From: Tenacibaculum mesophilum
Lineage (GTDB): Bacteria; Bacteroidota; Bacteroidia; Flavobacteriales; Flavobacteriaceae
Length of the DNA: 64,000 bases
Direction of reading: 5' to 3'
Assembly (NCBI RefSeq): GCF_003867075.1
Contig: NZ_CP032544.1
Location: 2,970,001 to 3,034,000, forward strand
A program made the position numbers and the translations under genes. This document shows, piece by piece, positions 5,282 to 43,600 of this stretch. The notes below the pieces were generated by a model. The model did not search any database. It was not told the origin of the DNA and saw only the letters and a program-made list of their open reading frames with translations. Each line of letters starts with the position of its first letter. Within the stretch, counting starts at the first letter, position 1.

Positions 5282-5551
5282 TTATTTTCTAATTCCTAAT
5301 TCTTTAATAATCGCACGATATCTATTAATCTCTTTTTTCTTTAGATAATCTAATAAGCTTCTACGCTTACCTACCATACGTACTAACGAGCGTTCTGTGT
5401 TAAAATCTTTACGATTTTTCTTTAAATGCTCAGTTAAGTGGTTAATTCTGTGCGTAAATAACGCGATTTGACCTTCTGCAGTACCAGTATCATTTGCTCC
5501 TTTACCGTGTTTTGCGAAGATTTGTTCTTTAACTTCTTTTGTTAAATACAT
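5282..5551 (-). CDS. rpsO: 30S ribosomal protein S15
   Basis: An 89-residue protein of exact S15 length with the family signature: GTAEGQIALFTHRINHLTEHLKKN in the first half, then RSLVRMVGKRRSLLDYLKKK. It binds 16S rRNA helices in the small-subunit platform. Its promoter is close upstream and a terminator follows, so it is probably mainly monocistronic, with pnp reached by read-through or its own promoter. Confidence 0.98.
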   Translation of the reverse strand: MYLTKEVKEQIFAKHGKGANDTGTAEGQIALFTHRINHLTEHLKKNRKDFNTERSLVRMVGKRRSLLDYLKKKEINRYRAIIKELGIRK

Positions 5552-5604
5552 GCCAATATTATTTAAATGATTATTATGTACTCAATGCATTTACATTGAA
5601 GATG

Positions 5605-5612
5605 CAAATGTA
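5605..5612 (-). promoter_or_regulatory. rpsO -7 element
   Basis: TACATTTG on the minus strand matches the flavobacterial TAnnTTTG element exactly. A clear TTG -33 element is not seen. The leader between it and rpsO contains a small CAATG/CATTG hairpin, which could be an S15 feedback site (inference). Confidence 0.6.
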
Positions 5613-20497: not shown

Positions 20498-20522
20498 AAA
20501 AATCCCGCTTTTGCGGGATTTA
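20498..20522 (-). terminator. Terminator of the aromatic amino acid operon
   Basis: AATCCCGC-AAAA-GCGGGATTTTT on the minus strand immediately follows the DAHP synthase/chorismate mutase gene. Confidence 0.88.
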
Positions 20523-20526
20523 ATAT

Positions 20527-21609
20527 TTAGTTGTTGATAATTTTTTCTTGATGATTGATACTTTCTTGATGTATTGCTTTGAACATTTTAAGTACAAACT
20601 CTTCACTTAAACCACGTTCATCACCTTCTAAAATCATTTTACCTAGTATTTCGTTCCATCGTTTGGTTTGTAAAATAGCAACGTTTTTCTCTTTTTTCAA
20701 TTTACCAATTGAATCTGCTATTTTCATACGTTTACCTAACATTTCAATTAATTGATGATCTACTACGTCAATTTGAGTACGTAAGGTGTTCAATGCGTTT
20801 CTATATTCAGTTTCTGTATCTGTGGCTTTTCTAACTTTTAAATCAATCATCATTTGAATTAATGATTTAGGAGTAATTTGTTGAGCTGCATCGCTCCATG
20901 CATTATCTGGATCGTAATGAGTTTCAACCATTAAACCATCAAAGTTTAAATCTAAGGCAGTTTGGCAAACATCAAAAATAATATCACGACGACCAGCGAT
21001 GTGTGACGGATCACAAATCAGTGGTAAATCAGGGAAACGGTTTTGTAATTCAATAGGAATTTGCCATTCAGGATTGTTACGGTATCTTGTTTTTTCGTAA
21101 GTAGAGAATCCTCTATGAATAACCCCTAGTTTTTTAATGTTTTTAGCGTACAAGCGTTCTATGGCACCTAACCACAATGGTAAATCGGGGTTTACAGGGT
21201 TTTTTACTAAAACAATTTTATCTGTACCCTCTAAAGCATCTGCTATTTCTTGAACAATAAAAGGACTTACGGTAGTGCGAGCACCAATCCATAAGATGTC
21301 TACGTCGTGCTCAATTGCAAGTTTTACGTGATCTTTGTTGGCTACTTCAGTAGCAATTAACATTCCTGTTTCTTGCTTTGCTTTTTGTAACCATTTTAGC
21401 CCTAAAGCACCCACACCTTCAAAATTACCTGGTCTTGTACGAGGTTTCCAAATTCCAGCTCTTAAAACAGTAGCATCTGTATCTTTTAATTCGTGTGCAA
21501 TTTGTAGTACTTGTTCTTCTGTTTCGGCGCTACAAGGTCCTGCAATTACTAGTGGATGCCCTAACCCGAAAGCATCTAACCATTTTTTTAACTCTTTTGT
21601 ATTCTCCAT
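20527..21609 (-). CDS. Bifunctional DAHP synthase / chorismate mutase type II
   Basis: A 360-residue fusion. Residues ~1-265 are a KDO8P synthase-like (type I beta) DAHP synthase with VIAGPCSAETEEQ, RAGIWKPRTRPGNFEGVG, HRGFSTYEKTRYRN and ICDPSHIAGRRD. Residues ~275-360 are an AroQ chorismate mutase (LRTQIDVVDHQLIEMLGKRM). It therefore supplies both the first step of the shikimate pathway and the step from chorismate to prephenate. It is last in the pheA operon, 11 bases after tyrA. The mutase domain may act as the allosteric sensor, as known for such fusions. Confidence 0.95.
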   Translation of the reverse strand: MENTKELKKWLDAFGLGHPLVIAGPCSAETEEQVLQIAHELKDTDATVLRAGIWKPRTRPGNFEGVGALGLKWLQKAKQETGMLIATEVANKDHVKLAIEHDVDILWIGARTTVSPFIVQEIADALEGTDKIVLVKNPVNPDLPLWLGAIERLYAKNIKKLGVIHRGFSTYEKTRYRNNPEWQIPIELQNRFPDLPLICDPSHIAGRRDIIFDVCQTALDLNFDGLMVETHYDPDNAWSDAAQQITPKSLIQMMIDLKVRKATDTETEYRNALNTLRTQIDVVDHQLIEMLGKRMKIADSIGKLKKEKNVAILQTKRWNEILGKMILEGDERGLSEEFVLKMFKAIHQESINHQEKIINN

Positions 21610-21620
21610 TTTTGATATTC

Positions 21621-22487
21621 TTATTGTTGAGGTATTCCCTCTAAAATTCCATTTAATATTTGTTTTATATGATTGGTGTTTTCCATTTCTATATAGATTT
21701 CTGGAAAATCGTTGTTTTCTAATAAAGTTTTGAATTGTTGTAAGTTATGAATATATTCATTCAGAGACTCAATAACATTTTCTTTATTTTGCTCAAAAAT
21801 AGGTGTCCACATTGCTGGTGAGCTTTTTGCTAAACGCACAGTAGAAGCAAATCCACTACCAGCCATATCAAAAATATCACGCTCGTTTTTCTCTTTTTCA
21901 ATAACTGTTTTACCTAACATGAAAGAGCTGATATGTGATAAATGTGATACATAGGCTATATGCTTATCGTGCGATTTTGGATCCATGTATCGAATACGCA
22001 TTCCTAATTTTGAAAATATATCTAATGCTTTTTCCTGTAATTTGAAAGCTGTTTTTTCTACCTCACAAATAATATTAGTTTTATTTCTAAATAAATTTGT
22101 CAATGCTGCATTGGGTCCTGAAAACTCAGTTCCAGCAATAGGGTGTGTTGCTAAAAAATTTCTTCTTTTCGGATGGTTTTTAACAGCATCACAAATTAGT
22201 TCTTTAGTCGAACCTACATCGAAAACCAAACAGGTATCAGAGATATTATCCAATGTTTTCAAAATAACCTCTCGTGAAACATCAACAGGAATAGCAATAA
22301 TGACTATATCTGCATTTTTTAACTCTGAAAGAGTCGCTTTTTGATGGATGATTCCTCTTTCTAAAGCAAGGTCTCCATGCTCTTCGTTGGAATCTATTCC
22401 GTAGATAGTAGCATTTTTAAATCCTAGCTGAATATCTAAGGCAAAACTTCCGCCGATTAATCCTAGTCCTATGATAAATACGTTCAT
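21621..22487 (-). CDS. tyrA: Prephenate dehydrogenase
   Basis: A 288-residue NAD(P)-dependent enzyme that oxidatively decarboxylates prephenate to 4-hydroxyphenylpyruvate for tyrosine. It has a Rossmann GLGLIGGSFALD at the very start, VFDVGSTKELI, HPIAGTEFSGP, and the helical domain segment AYVSHLSHISSFML. There is no mutase or ACT domain, since the mutase sits on the downstream DAHP synthase. Its start overlaps the aminotransferase stop by one base. Confidence 0.95.
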   Translation of the reverse strand: MNVFIIGLGLIGGSFALDIQLGFKNATIYGIDSNEEHGDLALERGIIHQKATLSELKNADIVIIAIPVDVSREVILKTLDNISDTCLVFDVGSTKELICDAVKNHPKRRNFLATHPIAGTEFSGPNAALTNLFRNKTNIICEVEKTAFKLQEKALDIFSKLGMRIRYMDPKSHDKHIAYVSHLSHISSFMLGKTVIEKEKNERDIFDMAGSGFASTVRLAKSSPAMWTPIFEQNKENVIESLNEYIHNLQQFKTLLENNDFPEIYIEMENTNHIKQILNGILEGIPQQ

Positions 22488-23629
22488 TATATTCTGTTGA
22501 TTGCTTCGTTAATCTTTTCTTCTGGAACGCACAATGAAAAACGAATGTAACCTTCGCCTTGACTGCCAAAAATAGTTCCTGGGGCAGCGAAAATATGTTT
22601 ATTATATAATAAATCATCAATCATTTCTTCAGATGTTTTTCCATCAGGAAGTTTGCACCAAACAAACATTCCAGATGCGTTTTTATCGTAGGTACATCCT
22701 AATTTTTCTGCTAACTCAAACACTAGTTTTTGCCTTTTTTTATAGGTGTTGTTTAGTTGAGTAAACCAATCCTTATCTAGTTCTAATGCTTTGGTAGCTC
22801 CTTTCTGAATTCCATAAAACATACCTGAATCCATTTGAGTTTTTACTTTTAAAATTTCAGTTAAGAATTCAGGTTTGCCTAATAACATTCCAACACGCCA
22901 TCCAGCCATGTTAAAAGATTTACTTACTGAGTTTAATTCTAAAGCAACATCTTTTGAGCCTTCAATTTGTAAAATACTTTGAGGGTGTTCATTCAATATA
23001 AAGCTATACGGATTGTCATTTACAATAACTATGTTATGTTTTTTTCCAAAGTCAATCAACTTTTGAAAAGTTTCTTTGGTAGCATCAGCACCTGTTGGCA
23101 TGTGTGGATAATTTACCCACATCAACTTTATTTTTGAAGTATCGAGTTTTTCCAAAGCTTCAAAGTTAGGTTGCCAGTTAGTTGTTTCTTCTAACTCGTA
23201 AAAAATAGGTTCTCCTCCTAATAAATTGGTCACAGAACTATAGGTCGGGTATCCTGGATTAGGAATTAATACCTGATCTCCTTCGTTTAAAAAAGCCAAT
23301 GAAATATGCATAATTCCCTCTTTACTTCCCATTAAGGGAAGTACTTCGTTAGCAGGATTAATACTAACTTGATAGTTTTTATGATAAAAACTTGAAACAG
23401 CTTGTCTAAATTCAGGTAAGCCTTGATAACTCTGATAACTATGTGCTCCAGTATCTTGTAAACTATCTTGAATAGCTTTCAATACTGATGTTGGAGGTTG
23501 TAAATCAGGGCTCCCAATTCCAATATTTATAATTGGTTTACCTTCTGAAATTAATTGACGTACTTCTTGTAATTTTTTAGAGAAGTAGTATTCTTGCACG
23601 GTTTGTAATCGATTGGCAAACTGTATCAT
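22487..23629 (-). CDS. PLP-dependent class I/II aminotransferase of the aromatic operon
   Basis: A 380-residue fold-type I aminotransferase. The PLP lysine lies in LNSVSKSFNMAGWRVGM, with NPGYPTYSS and NDNPYSFIL upstream. Its position between pheA and tyrA suggests it makes phenylalanine and tyrosine from phenylpyruvate and 4-hydroxyphenylpyruvate, though it may also use other substrates. It overlaps pheA by four bases and tyrA by one. Confidence 0.92.
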   Translation of the reverse strand: MIQFANRLQTVQEYYFSKKLQEVRQLISEGKPIINIGIGSPDLQPPTSVLKAIQDSLQDTGAHSYQSYQGLPEFRQAVSSFYHKNYQVSINPANEVLPLMGSKEGIMHISLAFLNEGDQVLIPNPGYPTYSSVTNLLGGEPIFYELEETTNWQPNFEALEKLDTSKIKLMWVNYPHMPTGADATKETFQKLIDFGKKHNIVIVNDNPYSFILNEHPQSILQIEGSKDVALELNSVSKSFNMAGWRVGMLLGKPEFLTEILKVKTQMDSGMFYGIQKGATKALELDKDWFTQLNNTYKKRQKLVFELAEKLGCTYDKNASGMFVWCKLPDGKTSEEMIDDLLYNKHIFAAPGTIFGSQGEGYIRFSLCVPEEKINEAINRI

Positions 23630-24450
23630 AATCTTCCGTTTTTGTATTCGCCTAATATTTTAAATTCTTCTGCCATAATTTGTATGATGGCTTTTGCTTT
23701 TTCGTAATCTTCATATTTTTCAAAAGTTACATCTACGAAAAAAGAGTACTTCCAAGGCGTCTCGATTTTGGGGAGCGATTGTATTTTAGTAAGGTTTAAT
23801 TTACAGTCGCTCATTACATTTAGCACTGTAGCTAAACTTCCTCTTTTGTGATCTAGTTCAAATTTTAATGAAGCTTTATTGATTTCACTTTTACCATTTT
23901 TTGGAAGACTTGTTTGAAGAAATACAAATCGAGTTGCGTTATTTTTAATCGTTTGAATTTCATCTTCAATAACTGATAATTTAAAAATATCAGCAGCCAT
24001 TTTAGGTGCAATTGCTGCAACTCCTTTTAATTTTTGGTCTGCGATTCTTTTTGCAACAGCAGAGGTATCAACATCTTCAACTAACTTAATGTGTTTATGT
24101 TGTTTGAAAAATTCTTTACATTGTAGTAATGCCATCGGATGCGAACAAACCTCAGTAATGTCTTCAATTCGTTGGTCAGGTAACGCCATTAAATGATGAT
24201 GTATAGACAAGTAATACTCACCAGAAATATGCAAATTGTACTTGTCAATTAGGGCATAGTTGGGTATGATTGAGCCTGCTATGGTGTTTTCTAAAGCCAT
24301 AATTGCTTGCTCACTTCTTGAATTAATAAGGCTATCAACCAATACGTCAAAAGATAAGCACTTGTGTAAGTCGATGTTTTCTCCGTAGTAGTTGTTTGCA
24401 ACAATATGGTGGTTGCTTCCTTGTATTCCTTGAATGGCTATTTTTTTCAT
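23626..24450 (-). CDS. pheA: Prephenate dehydratase
   Basis: A 274-residue enzyme that turns prephenate into phenylpyruvate. The periplasmic-binding-like catalytic domain holds QGIQGSNHHIVANNYYG, ALENTIAGSI and NNATRFVFLQ (the TRF motif). The C-terminal ACT domain (GSLATVLNVMSDCKLNLTKI, PWKYSFFVDV) normally binds phenylalanine for feedback inhibition. The usual GALV and ESRP motifs are altered here (GSLA; IQSLP), so effector binding may differ. It is first in the operon and its start lies 8 bases past a leader terminator. Confidence 0.95.
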   Translation of the reverse strand: MKKIAIQGIQGSNHHIVANNYYGENIDLHKCLSFDVLVDSLINSRSEQAIMALENTIAGSIIPNYALIDKYNLHISGEYYLSIHHHLMALPDQRIEDITEVCSHPMALLQCKEFFKQHKHIKLVEDVDTSAVAKRIADQKLKGVAAIAPKMAADIFKLSVIEDEIQTIKNNATRFVFLQTSLPKNGKSEINKASLKFELDHKRGSLATVLNVMSDCKLNLTKIQSLPKIETPWKYSFFVDVTFEKYEDYEKAKAIIQIMAEEFKILGEYKNGRL

Positions 24451-24457
24451 TTTACAT

Positions 24458-24490
24458 CAAAAAAAAAGCCTCGATAAATTCGAGACTTTG
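24458..24490 (-). terminator. Attenuator terminator before pheA
   Basis: On the minus strand AAAGUCUCGA (24489-24480) pairs with UCGAGGCUUU around an AUUUA loop, giving a 10-bp stem with one U-G pair. It is followed by a run of nine U. It ends only about 8 bases before the pheA ATG, so it can only work by stopping leader transcription. Confidence 0.88.
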
Positions 24491-24538
24491 ATTGGGTATA
24501 TATTTTTTGTTAGGTTAACAATATGATACAAAGTCTCG
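24481..24538 (-). promoter_or_regulatory. Antiterminator hairpin of the pheA leader
   Basis: CGAGACTTTG (24538-24529, inside the leader-peptide codons) is a perfect 10-base complement of CAAAGTCTCG (24490-24481). The second strand is also the 5' arm of the terminator, so the two hairpins exclude each other. Stalling of a ribosome upstream would favour this form. Confidence 0.85.
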
Positions 24539-24598
24539 TCTCTTACTAAAAAAGTAAAAGTAAAAATAGAAACCTTGCCATACGTTTTGTAACATCAT
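24515..24598 (-). CDS. pheL: Phe/Tyr-rich leader peptide of the pheA operon
   Basis: A 27-codon ORF (ATG-ATG start, TAA stop) whose residues 10-17 read FYFYFYFF, preceded by VWQG and followed by SKRRDFV. In all it has 6 Phe, 4 Tyr and 1 Trp. The aromatic run ends about 10 bases before the antiterminator's first strand. A ribosome that reaches the stop codon would cover that strand and let the terminator form. The design parallels enterobacterial pheL but the peptide is unrelated in sequence; the symbol is by analogy. It controls the four-gene aromatic operon. Confidence 0.85.
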   Translation of the reverse strand: MMLQNVWQGFYFYFYFFSKRRDFVSYC

Positions 24599-24622
24599 TG
24601 TATTTGTGTTTTTTGTACGGAA

Positions 24623-24653
24623 CAAATCTTAGAAATAAATTTAACTAAACCAA
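24623..24653 (-). promoter_or_regulatory. Probable promoter of the pheA leader
   Basis: TTG (24653-24651), then 19 bases, then TAAGATTTG. This is close to TTG/TAnnTTTG with one extra base in the -7 element, and is placed to start the leader near 24615. Confidence 0.5.
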
Positions 24654-24679
24654 ATTTTTTTTTAAAAAAGTGTAAAAAA

Positions 24680-24711
24680 GAAAAAAGCTTCTCAAAATGA
24701 GAAGCTTTTTG
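24680..24711 (-). terminator. tRNA-Asp terminator
   Basis: AAGCTTCTC-AAAAT-GAGAAGCTT stem flanked by A and T runs, immediately past the 3' end of the downstream tRNA. Confidence 0.85.
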
Positions 24712-24785
24712 CGGTCTGGACGGGACTCGAACCCGCGACCCCATGCGTGACAGGCATGTATTCTAACCAGCTGAACTACCAGACC
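24712..24785 (-). tRNA. tRNA-Asp (GTC)
   Basis: A 74-base cloverleaf: acceptor GGTCTGG/CCAGACC with discriminator G, anticodon loop CTGTCAC giving GTC, and T arm GGGTTCGAGTCCC. CCA is not encoded. It is identical to the copy 35 bases upstream. Confidence 0.96.
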
Positions 24786-24820
24786 GTTGCTTTAAGCAAT
24801 ATGTTTTAGAGAAACTTTAG

Positions 24821-24894
24821 CGGTCTGGACGGGACTCGAACCCGCGACCCCATGCGTGACAGGCATGTATTCTAACCAGCTGAACTACCAGACC
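24821..24894 (-). tRNA. tRNA-Asp (GTC), second identical copy
   Basis: Same 74-base sequence as the neighbouring gene. It is transcribed first, with a 35-base spacer, so the two are probably processed from one precursor. Confidence 0.96.
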
Positions 24895-26429: not shown

Positions 26430-26439
26430 TCAAATATAT

Positions 26440-26503
26440 TTTGAGGAAAAATTTGACTGATTGCAACCTCATTGAACAATGATTCAAAATAAAAATGCTA
26501 AAG
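26440..26503 (+). ncRNA. SAM-II riboswitch upstream of metK
   Basis: GAGG (26443-26446) pairs with CCTC (26467-26470) around a loop ATTTGACTGATTGCAA, and the downstream AAAATGCTAAAG can fold back into that loop. This is the compact pseudoknot layout and conserved sequence of SAM-II (SAM-alpha): AUUU, AUUGCAA and AAAUG-GCUAAA blocks. It lies in the leader of the SAM synthetase gene and would lower metK expression when SAM is high. TGCTAA can also pair with TTAGCA at 26530-26535, a possible alternative fold. Confidence 0.8.
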
Positions 26504-26578
26504 CAGTAATTTCTACTCCTTTTAGCGACTTAGCAATTCAGATTTTTTCTTTTAGTTAAATTTAAAAAAAAAGTATTT

Positions 26579-27832
26579 ATGTCATATTTTTTTACTTCAG
26601 AAAGTGTTTCTGAAGGACATCCAGATAAAGTAGCAGATCAAATATCTGATGCTCTAATAGATAATTTTTTAGCTTTTGATTCAAATTCAAAAGTAGCATG
26701 TGAAACATTAGTAACAACTGGTCAAGTAGTATTAGCAGGAGAAGTTAAGTCTTCTACTTACTTAGATGTTCAAAAAATTGCTCGTGAGGTAATTAATAAA
26801 ATTGGATATACCAAAGGTGAGTATATGTTTGACGGTAATTCTTGTGGAGTGTTATCAGCAATTCATGAACAGTCAGATGATATTAACCGTGGAGTAGATA
26901 GAGCTTCAAAAGAAGAGCAAGGAGCAGGTGATCAAGGAATGATGTTTGGTTATGCGACAAACGAAACTGAGCATTATATGCCGTTAGCGTTAGATTTATC
27001 ACATATAATTTTAAAGGAATTAGCAGCAATCCGTAGAGAGAATAAGGAAATTACTTATTTACGTCCAGATGCTAAAAGTCAGGTAACTATTGAGTATTCT
27101 GACGATAACGTACCGCAACGCATTGAGGCAATTGTAGTTTCTACTCAACATGATGATTTTGCTGATGATAAAACAATGTTAGCTAAAATTAGAAAAGATA
27201 TTGTTGAGATTTTAATTCCTAGAGTAAAAGCACAATTAACTCCAGAAATTCAAGCGTTATTTAATGATGATATTAAATATCATATTAATCCAACAGGAAA
27301 GTTTGTAATTGGTGGACCTCATGGAGATACAGGGTTAACAGGCCGTAAGATTATTGTTGATACTTATGGAGGAAAAGGAGCACATGGTGGCGGAGCATTT
27401 TCTGGAAAAGATCCAAGTAAAGTAGATCGCTCTGCAGCGTATGCAACACGTCATATAGCTAAGAATTTAGTAGCTGCTGGAGTGGCTGATGAGGTTTTAG
27501 TACAAGTATCGTATGCTATTGGAGTAGTAGAACCGATGGGTATTTTTGTAGATACTTACGGAACTTCAAGAGTGGATTTAACTGATGGAGAAATTGCTCA
27601 AAAAGTTTCTGAAATTTTTGACATGCGTCCACACGCTATTGAAGATCGTTTAAAGTTACGTAATCCAATGTATAGTGAAACAGCAGCTTACGGGCATATG
27701 GGAAGAAAAAATGAAGTAGTTTCTAAAACATTTACACAACCTAATGGAGAAAGTAAAACAATGGAAGTTGAATTGTTTACTTGGGAAAAATTAGATTATG
27801 TGTCTAAAGTAAAAGAGAGTTTCAGTTTGTAA
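26579..27832 (+). CDS. metK: S-adenosylmethionine synthetase
   Basis: A 417-residue enzyme that makes SAM from methionine and ATP. Signatures: [20 protein letters not shown] at the start, [39 protein letters not shown] and [19 protein letters not shown]. All are intact. It sits alone under a SAM-II riboswitch, so the product appears to regulate its own synthesis. Confidence 0.98.
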
Positions 27833-43350: not shown

Positions 43351-43404
43351 GTTAAAAATATATCATCGGTATGACCCAAAAGCTTCAAATCGCGAAAGCA
43401 TTGT

Positions 43405-43600
43405 CAATATCCGAATAGGCAGGTCTCCTGACTTATAACAGCTTTTATCATCCTTCCCGCTTTTGGCAGTGGATATACTAGGATAAAAACTTTTGGTGTG
43501 TTACTTACAGTTGCGCGACAGTTCGTGATTTGCACACGATTCCCTATTAATCTACAGTTAAGTAAAACCTTTTCGGTTGATGAAGTATGTAAAGAACTTA
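43405..43600 (-). ncRNA. Cobalamin riboswitch upstream of metE
   Basis: On the minus strand the hallmark blocks appear in order: GGGAATCGTGTGCAAATCAC, CTGTCGCGCAACTGTAA, CCACTG, GCGGGAAGG and the B12 box AGTCAGGAGACCTGCC (43433-43418). This is a complete aptamer. Binding of adenosyl- or other cobalamin would favour the downstream terminator and switch metE off. Confidence 0.96.

Follow-up and report, generated by a model that had tools for sequence, protein, structure and literature searches.

A candidate leader-peptide attenuator with alternative hairpins upstream of the pheA operon in Tenacibaculum mesophilum and other Flavobacteriaceae

Upstream of pheA in Tenacibaculum mesophilum lies a short open reading frame (ORF) rich in phenylalanine and tyrosine codons, whose tail can pair with the 5' arm of an intrinsic terminator placed just before the gene. 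We propose that this leader is a ribosome-mediated transcription attenuator with mutually exclusive hairpins, a reading to which we assign a probability of about 0.9. The leader was recognised in a stretch of 64,000 nucleotides, the whole of which is referred to here as the window, and a sequence-only reading had already likened it to the attenuation seen in pheL and trpL. That likeness is supported by the conservation of the leader, by pairing between the antiterminator strands and by their covariation. The sequence elements, the pairing and the covariation can be observed directly in the window and its relatives, and the geometry of the switch in a model.

The leader, its alternative hairpins and the operon

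The leader ORF has 27 codons, running from ATG to TAA, and residues 10-17 of its product read FYFYFYFF (Table 1). The length of the ORF and the residues of its aromatic run agree with the first description of the leader. A second ATG is found within the ORF at 24595 (minus strand). The first ATG has A at positions -3 and -6, which have been described as positive determinants in Flavobacterium johnsoniae (PMC6847099). Among close relatives, pairwise comparison of the control codons gives 21 synonymous and 31 nonsynonymous differences, mostly Phe-Tyr swaps, and these alone do not prove translation of the leader.

The tail of the ORF holds CGAGACUUUG, and its pairing partner, CAAAGUCUCG, is also the 5' arm of a terminator with nine U. 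The two are denoted strand A and strand B, A being the exact reverse complement of B over 10 bases. Strand B can alternatively pair with strand C to form the terminator hairpin, which has 10 pairs; the nine U occupy positions 24460-24468, and a further 8 nt lead to the pheA ATG (24450). Both the exact 10-base complement and the 10-bp terminator sharing its strand, about 8 bases before the pheA ATG, had been noticed from the sequence, and both are confirmed. In the window the energies of the two helices are nearly equal, at -12.3 kcal/mol for A:B and -11.9 kcal/mol for B:C, and the A:B helix was matched by none of 100 shuffled spacers (p 0.01).

Table 1. Features of the leader and of the operon behind it, in window coordinates
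Feature	Position	Strand	Basis
Candidate Bacteroidota-type promoter: TTTG (24651-24654) and TAAGATTTG (24623-24631)	24623..24654	-	By eye; one base off TAnnTTTG
Leader ORF, MMLQNVWQGFYFYFYFFSKRRDFVSYC	24515..24598	-	ORF list and comparative scan
Trp codon, three codons 5' of the first Phe in the run (W Q G F)	24578..24580	-	Trp enrichment in family leaders
Strand 1, CAAGGTTTC (= CAAGGUUUC), 1:2-like candidate protector with A	24569..24577	-	In the minimum-energy fold of the full leader
Control codons FYFYFYFF	24548..24571	-	At least 5/8 Phe/Tyr in 86/88 other family genera
Strand A (5' strand of the antiterminator), CGAGACTTTG	24529..24538	-	Sequence, shuffles, covariation, folding
Strand B (shared), CAAAGTCTCG	24481..24490	-	Sequence, shuffles, covariation, folding
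Intrinsic terminator: hairpin 24465-24489 and nine U	24460..24489	-	Hairpin search; folding energies
pheA, prephenate dehydratase; weak ACT match at the C-terminus	23626..24450	-	PF00800 (E 1.8e-50); PF01842 below cut-off
Class I/II aminotransferase, substrate unsettled	22487..23629	-	PF00155; best NCBIfam matches below cut-offs
Prephenate dehydrogenase (tyrA)	21621..22487	-	PF02153, PF20463
DAHP synthase I-chorismate mutase fusion	20527..21609	-	PF00793, PF01817; NCBIfam DAHP synthase models below cut-offs
Hairpin with U-containing tail after the last gene	20500..20521	-	Inverted repeat listed on the plus strand; minus reading by eye, five U in the end of the 3' arm and the tail

The order pheA, aminotransferase, tyrA, DAHP synthase was kept in all 71 close-relative loci of at least 6.8 kb. 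Together with the domain matches, this bears out the earlier proposal of a four-gene operon which makes both phenylalanine and tyrosine and includes DAHP synthase. Only one other PF00793 match was found in the genome, corresponding to KDO8P synthase, and PF01474 had no match in the genome. With a single DAHP-type PF00793 match and no PF01474 match, this genome appears to have its one detected DAHP synthase in the operon.

The candidate promoter upstream of the leader combines TTTG, which we take to be the -33 element, with a sequence resembling TAnnTTTG. The latter is the -7 consensus (PMC9723704), and a -33-type element has been found to be weak in F. johnsoniae (PMC6847099). The window has no exact TAnnTTTG match, and matches with one mismatch are common by chance. 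Counted over 201 of the 202 loci compared below, the relaxed motif TAnnTT[A/T]G gave 153 matches in the interval 10-29 nt upstream of the leader start codon, where shuffles gave about 8, and exact TAnnTTTG was present in 42 of the 201 upstreams, with 16 expected. Just 5' of the leader are two tRNA-Asp (GTC) genes side by side (24711-24894, minus strand), and after them comes a separate terminator-like hairpin with its own U tract, which suggests that the leader has its own promoter.

Conservation of the leader and covariation of its strands

Leaders were defined as ORFs of 12-45 codons with at least five Phe or Tyr in eight consecutive codons, lying no more than 650 nt upstream of pheA. The nearest relatives of the window are from Tenacibaculum, and a leader preceded pheA in all 80 close loci. 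The family sample comprised 100 genomes, one per genus, of which 89 had a pheA match and the 11 without a match were left out; here the leader was present in 86 of the 88 other genera, the exceptions being L216 and L246. By comparison, dinucleotide shuffling of the upstreams gave 119 leaders in 2670 sequences and reverse strands gave 13 in 267, in controls whose pooled groups had seven loci in common.

In wider samples the leader was found in 36 of the 60 loci of the order sample, which took in 60 of 86 non-own matches and left out 22 genomes of family f76 and four of family f2, and in 25 of the 39 loci of the class sample (39 of 41 non-own matches), three of these 25 being from the same family as the window. 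The exceptions within the order sample fall mainly in families f2 and f76: the leader was absent from 19 of 20 f2 loci and from all three f76 loci, and the remaining f2 locus (L152) carries a Phe/Tyr ORF but has no terminator. Of the phylum sample, with its 102 matches, the scan covered 20 stretches and 12 loci from the search, three of these 12 belonging to genomes that had been sampled before. Outside the class, where 77 genomes have a pheA match, a leader was present in two of the 27 loci examined, L318 and L322. The pheA of these two loci is nearer to the query than other outside-class pheA matches, and gene transfer is a possible origin of their leaders. In five Kordia loci the terminator stands 176-433 nt before pheA, the distance being about 390-430 nt in L024 and L031. 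The sequence-only reading had named the absence of the leader ORF or of both hairpins in related species as evidence against attenuation; in the relatives checked the leader, the terminator and the A:B pairing are mostly kept.

For the analysis of pairing, leaders had to exceed five of eight Phe/Tyr codons or to contain a run of three aromatic codons. The 261 upstreams yielded 221 leaders, of which 213 had a terminator in a strict search, and 202 of these 213 were non-identical. In the eight leaders that did not pass this search, inspection by eye shows bulged, imperfect or short-U hairpins in six (L098, L100, L101, L109, L140 and L254) and no terminator hairpin in L137 or L152. The A:B helix was better than with a shuffled spacer at p<=0.05 in 153 of the 202 loci and at p<=0.01 in 83, and was no better than shuffles at 0.05 in the other 49. 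Its mean score was 18.2 with the B strand belonging to the locus and 13.9 when B was swapped between loci. An exact 6-base complement of the B core was found in the A region, after the aromatic codons, in 65/202 loci (0.9 expected), rising to 119/202 when one G-U pair was allowed (6.3 expected), and the rate of exact complements was 0.32 for the own core compared to 0.016 for the cores of other loci.

Where the core of B differs, that of A can be seen to differ with it. The B core GTCTCG pairs with CGAGAC in A (34 of 79 exact), GTCCCG with CGGGAC (14 of 27), GTTCCG with CGGAAC (4 of 10) and CCCGGC with GCCGGG (2 of 3). Other B cores are poorly matched, with exact complements in 0/13 for TCTCGA, 0/8 for CTCGAT, 1/7 for GCCTCG, 2/10 for ATCCTG and 2/9 for ATCCCG. 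The A core is seen in each of the three reading frames, and so is kept as RNA and not as peptide. The antiterminator and terminator strands covary across these loci, and the antiterminator appears to be kept by compensatory change. Because the frame of the A core varies and the MAFFT alignment is out of register, covariation was counted by search against shuffles. The alignment of family leaders, which starts at the control codons and ends with the terminator, used 82 of 89 upstreams, L195, L201, L216, L246, L250 and L254 having been removed by hand and L235 by the Phe/Tyr-run rule. Its best conserved columns are the U-rich codons and strands A, B and C, and the aromatic run sits at a near-fixed distance from A.

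The hairpin before pheA might alternatively be a fixed partial terminator which lowers basal expression, the aromatic ORF being a chance by-product of a U-rich region in which UUU and UAU codons are cheap; indeed, 16 of 2670 shuffles reach six Phe/Tyr in eight codons. However, 77 of the 88 other family genera reach this stricter level, Trp codons (UGG) are enriched about nine-fold, which argues against a chance ORF, and a plain terminator has no need of a covarying A:B pairing. We consider this explanation very improbable. A ligand- or protein-sensing RNA (a riboswitch, a T-box or an attenuator acting through an RNA-binding protein), in which the ORF is a decoy, would suit a structured leader with alternative hairpins that belongs to no Rfam family at gathering score, yet the conserved columns are those of the U-rich codons and of A, B and C, the conserved upstream part being a coded aromatic run whose spacing from A hardly changes. 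T-box and riboswitch Rfam models gave no match at the leader, and this second alternative strikes us as exceedingly improbable. A plain terminator, a chance ORF and a riboswitch or T-box were set aside on the basis of the conservation, covariation and Rfam results.

Modelled switching and the amino acids sensed

What follows for the start site, for leader translation, for the tRNA signal and for the effect on transcription is inferred. Transcription would begin just before the leader ORF, with a ribosome trailing RNA polymerase. Under scarcity of charged tRNA-Phe or tRNA-Tyr, and probably tRNA-Trp, the ribosome would pause on the Trp/aromatic run, leaving A uncovered and able to pair with newly made B, which would block the B:C terminator and allow the four genes to be transcribed. 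When the aromatic tRNAs are charged, the ribosome would pass the run and cover A, B:C would form and transcription would stop at the U tract, which lies 8 nt upstream of pheA. An additional strand 5' of A may hold A when the leader is untranslated.

The ribosomal footprint extends 13 nt from the A site, and the ribosome was accordingly modelled as protecting 13 nt from the A-site codon. In the window, an A site anywhere as far as the last Phe codon of the run leaves 9-10 nt of A exposed; one codon on, this shrinks to 6 nt, and after a second codon to 3 nt. For the 202 loci together, the model gives pairing of B with exposed upstream RNA a probability of 0.97 when the A site is at the last aromatic codon, falling to 0.85 one codon further on, 0.56 at two, 0.14 at five and 0.12 at the stop codon. 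The model thus places the switch point 1-3 codons past the last aromatic codon, and predicts that a ribosome on the control codons exposes A and that one beyond them covers it. At the last aromatic codon the value of 0.97 for the own spacer compares with 0.57 for a shuffled spacer (n=201), and with the shuffled baseline already at this level the modelled drop in pairing along the leader partly reflects less RNA being exposed.

Folding also points to structure 5' of A. The region of strand 1 is more stable than synonymous-codon resamples, with z of -2.87 in the window and a mean z of -1.12 over the 202 loci, of which 57% fall below -1 and 0.5% above +1; strand 1 and A taken directly as a duplex give a weaker signal, with a mean z of -0.49. 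In a ribosome-free equilibrium model, B was paired upstream at 0.78 on average and at 0.96 in the window. Since this model favours upstream pairing of B, strong termination of an untranslated leader is not predicted. From these folds, a protector (1:2-like) hairpin holding A should be regarded as possible, not as established.

Trp codons are a further feature of the family leaders. They occur at or before the end of the eight-codon control window in 62 of 87, where position-wise shuffles give 7.0, and their position varies between genera, with -3/-2 and +3/+4, counted from the control window, the most frequent. On this codon evidence the leader probably senses tryptophan as well as phenylalanine and tyrosine, and, as the operon also carries the one DAHP synthase detected, sensing of all three amino acids would be a natural reading. 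The joint sensing of Phe and Tyr first suggested for the window may need to be widened to three amino acids given the enrichment of Trp. The same architecture could instead respond to Phe and Tyr only, or to translation being slow for any reason, in which case the Trp codon would be there for pairing in the RNA. This we take seriously, although at somewhat short of even odds: the UGG of the window adjoins strand 1, Trp is absent from 25 of the 87 family leaders and trpE has a Trp-run leader of its own, whereas Trp positions that shift across genera suit codon sensing better than one fixed helix.

Known attenuators and significance

The enterobacterial pheL attenuator has a leader ORF of aromatic codons, overlapping hairpins and a terminator before pheA, and in all of these the leader described here resembles it. 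The two differ in that the window leader mixes Phe/Tyr with Trp codons, and in that its operon contains DAHP synthase and tyrA and has Bacteroidota-type promoter signals. Positions 24459-24582 of the window align over the whole of the corresponding Rfam model (RF01859, Phe_leader) on the correct strand, with a score of 24.9 bits (E 0.03), below the gathering score of 55. In the trpL and hisL leaders of Proteobacteria, a stall on regulatory codons frees the strand that blocks the terminator, by a logic of 1:2, 2:3 and 3:4 pairings. The leader before pheA would likewise depend on a codon stall that frees a terminator-blocking strand; trpL and hisL differ from it in responding to one amino acid each and in using Shine-Dalgarno initiation.

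No published flavobacterial example had been known to the sequence-only reading, but a partial hint exists. In Flavobacterium psychrophilum, a 5' element of pheA without an Rfam match, present in other Flavobacteriaceae, was described in 2021, alongside strong clues for leader-peptide attenuation before amino-acid operons (PMC9723704). This element concerns the same gene and family as the leader studied here; in the relevant section of that paper pheA is not itself called an attenuator, and the section gives no sequence, codon or pairing detail (PMC9723704). According to a 2010 survey, the Firmicutes case that it presents was, ermC aside, the first leader-peptide system to be demonstrated beyond Proteobacteria and Actinobacteria (PMC2965389), and leader-like small ORFs have been noted in Bacteroides (PMC7366714). 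An earlier prediction for Bacteroidota is possible, e.g. in the comparative attenuation survey of Lopatovskaya et al. (2010), cited in PMC4833913. The regulator is of a known kind and partly foreshadowed; what is added here is its wide spread, the covariation of its strands with A in three frames, the Trp codon and the link to the sole detected DAHP synthase.

Similar leaders are seen before other biosynthetic genes. In the genome of the window, MNFIQLHHHHFHTCTQAS precedes hisG (L270) and MIKQQLNNWWWKTHNLR precedes trpE (L283). At least three His in eight codons were found before hisG in 16/16 loci, WWW before trpE in 12/14 and Ile/Val runs before ilvD in 7/14, all of the last in relatives (L302, L306-L310 and L314), these being counts without a shuffle control. 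The ilvD of the window genome itself has no leader within 1.5 kb. Terminator-like hairpins were present in all 14 his, trp and ilv leader examples folded. As before pheA, these leaders of the genus combine runs of cognate codons with a terminator-like hairpin, for other amino acids and with strand pairing judged by eye and without a shuffle control. Tenacibaculum apparently possesses a set of amino-acid attenuators.

The window also carries RNA elements of other kinds. A SAM-II riboswitch (Rfam gathering match; 26437-26511, plus strand) lies upstream of an ORF at 26579 which by eye resembles S-adenosylmethionine synthetase, and there is a cobalamin riboswitch at 43401-43587 (minus strand, 95.8 bits) and an S15-Flavobacteria ribosomal protein leader at 5549-5612 (minus strand, 76.5 bits).

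The pheA leader, which has no Rfam match at gathering score, is a candidate for a new Rfam family, and it provides a testable case of ribosome-mediated attenuation in Bacteroidota. As attenuation needs a ribosome close behind RNA polymerase, coupling in this phylum could be tested in F. johnsoniae. E. coli has separate DAHP synthases and leaders. If tryptophan is also read in the present case, the signals from all three end products of a branched pathway would come together in a single leader and act on the first enzyme of that pathway, unlike in E. coli. We would give even odds to the broader proposal that a class-wide attenuator of Bacteroidota reads the charging of Phe, Tyr and Trp tRNAs jointly, and so sets the sole DAHP synthase, the entry of carbon to the aromatic pathway. 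If true, this, together with the His, Trp and Ile/Val leaders of the genus, would imply tight coupling of transcription and translation in a phylum which initiates translation largely without Shine-Dalgarno pairing.
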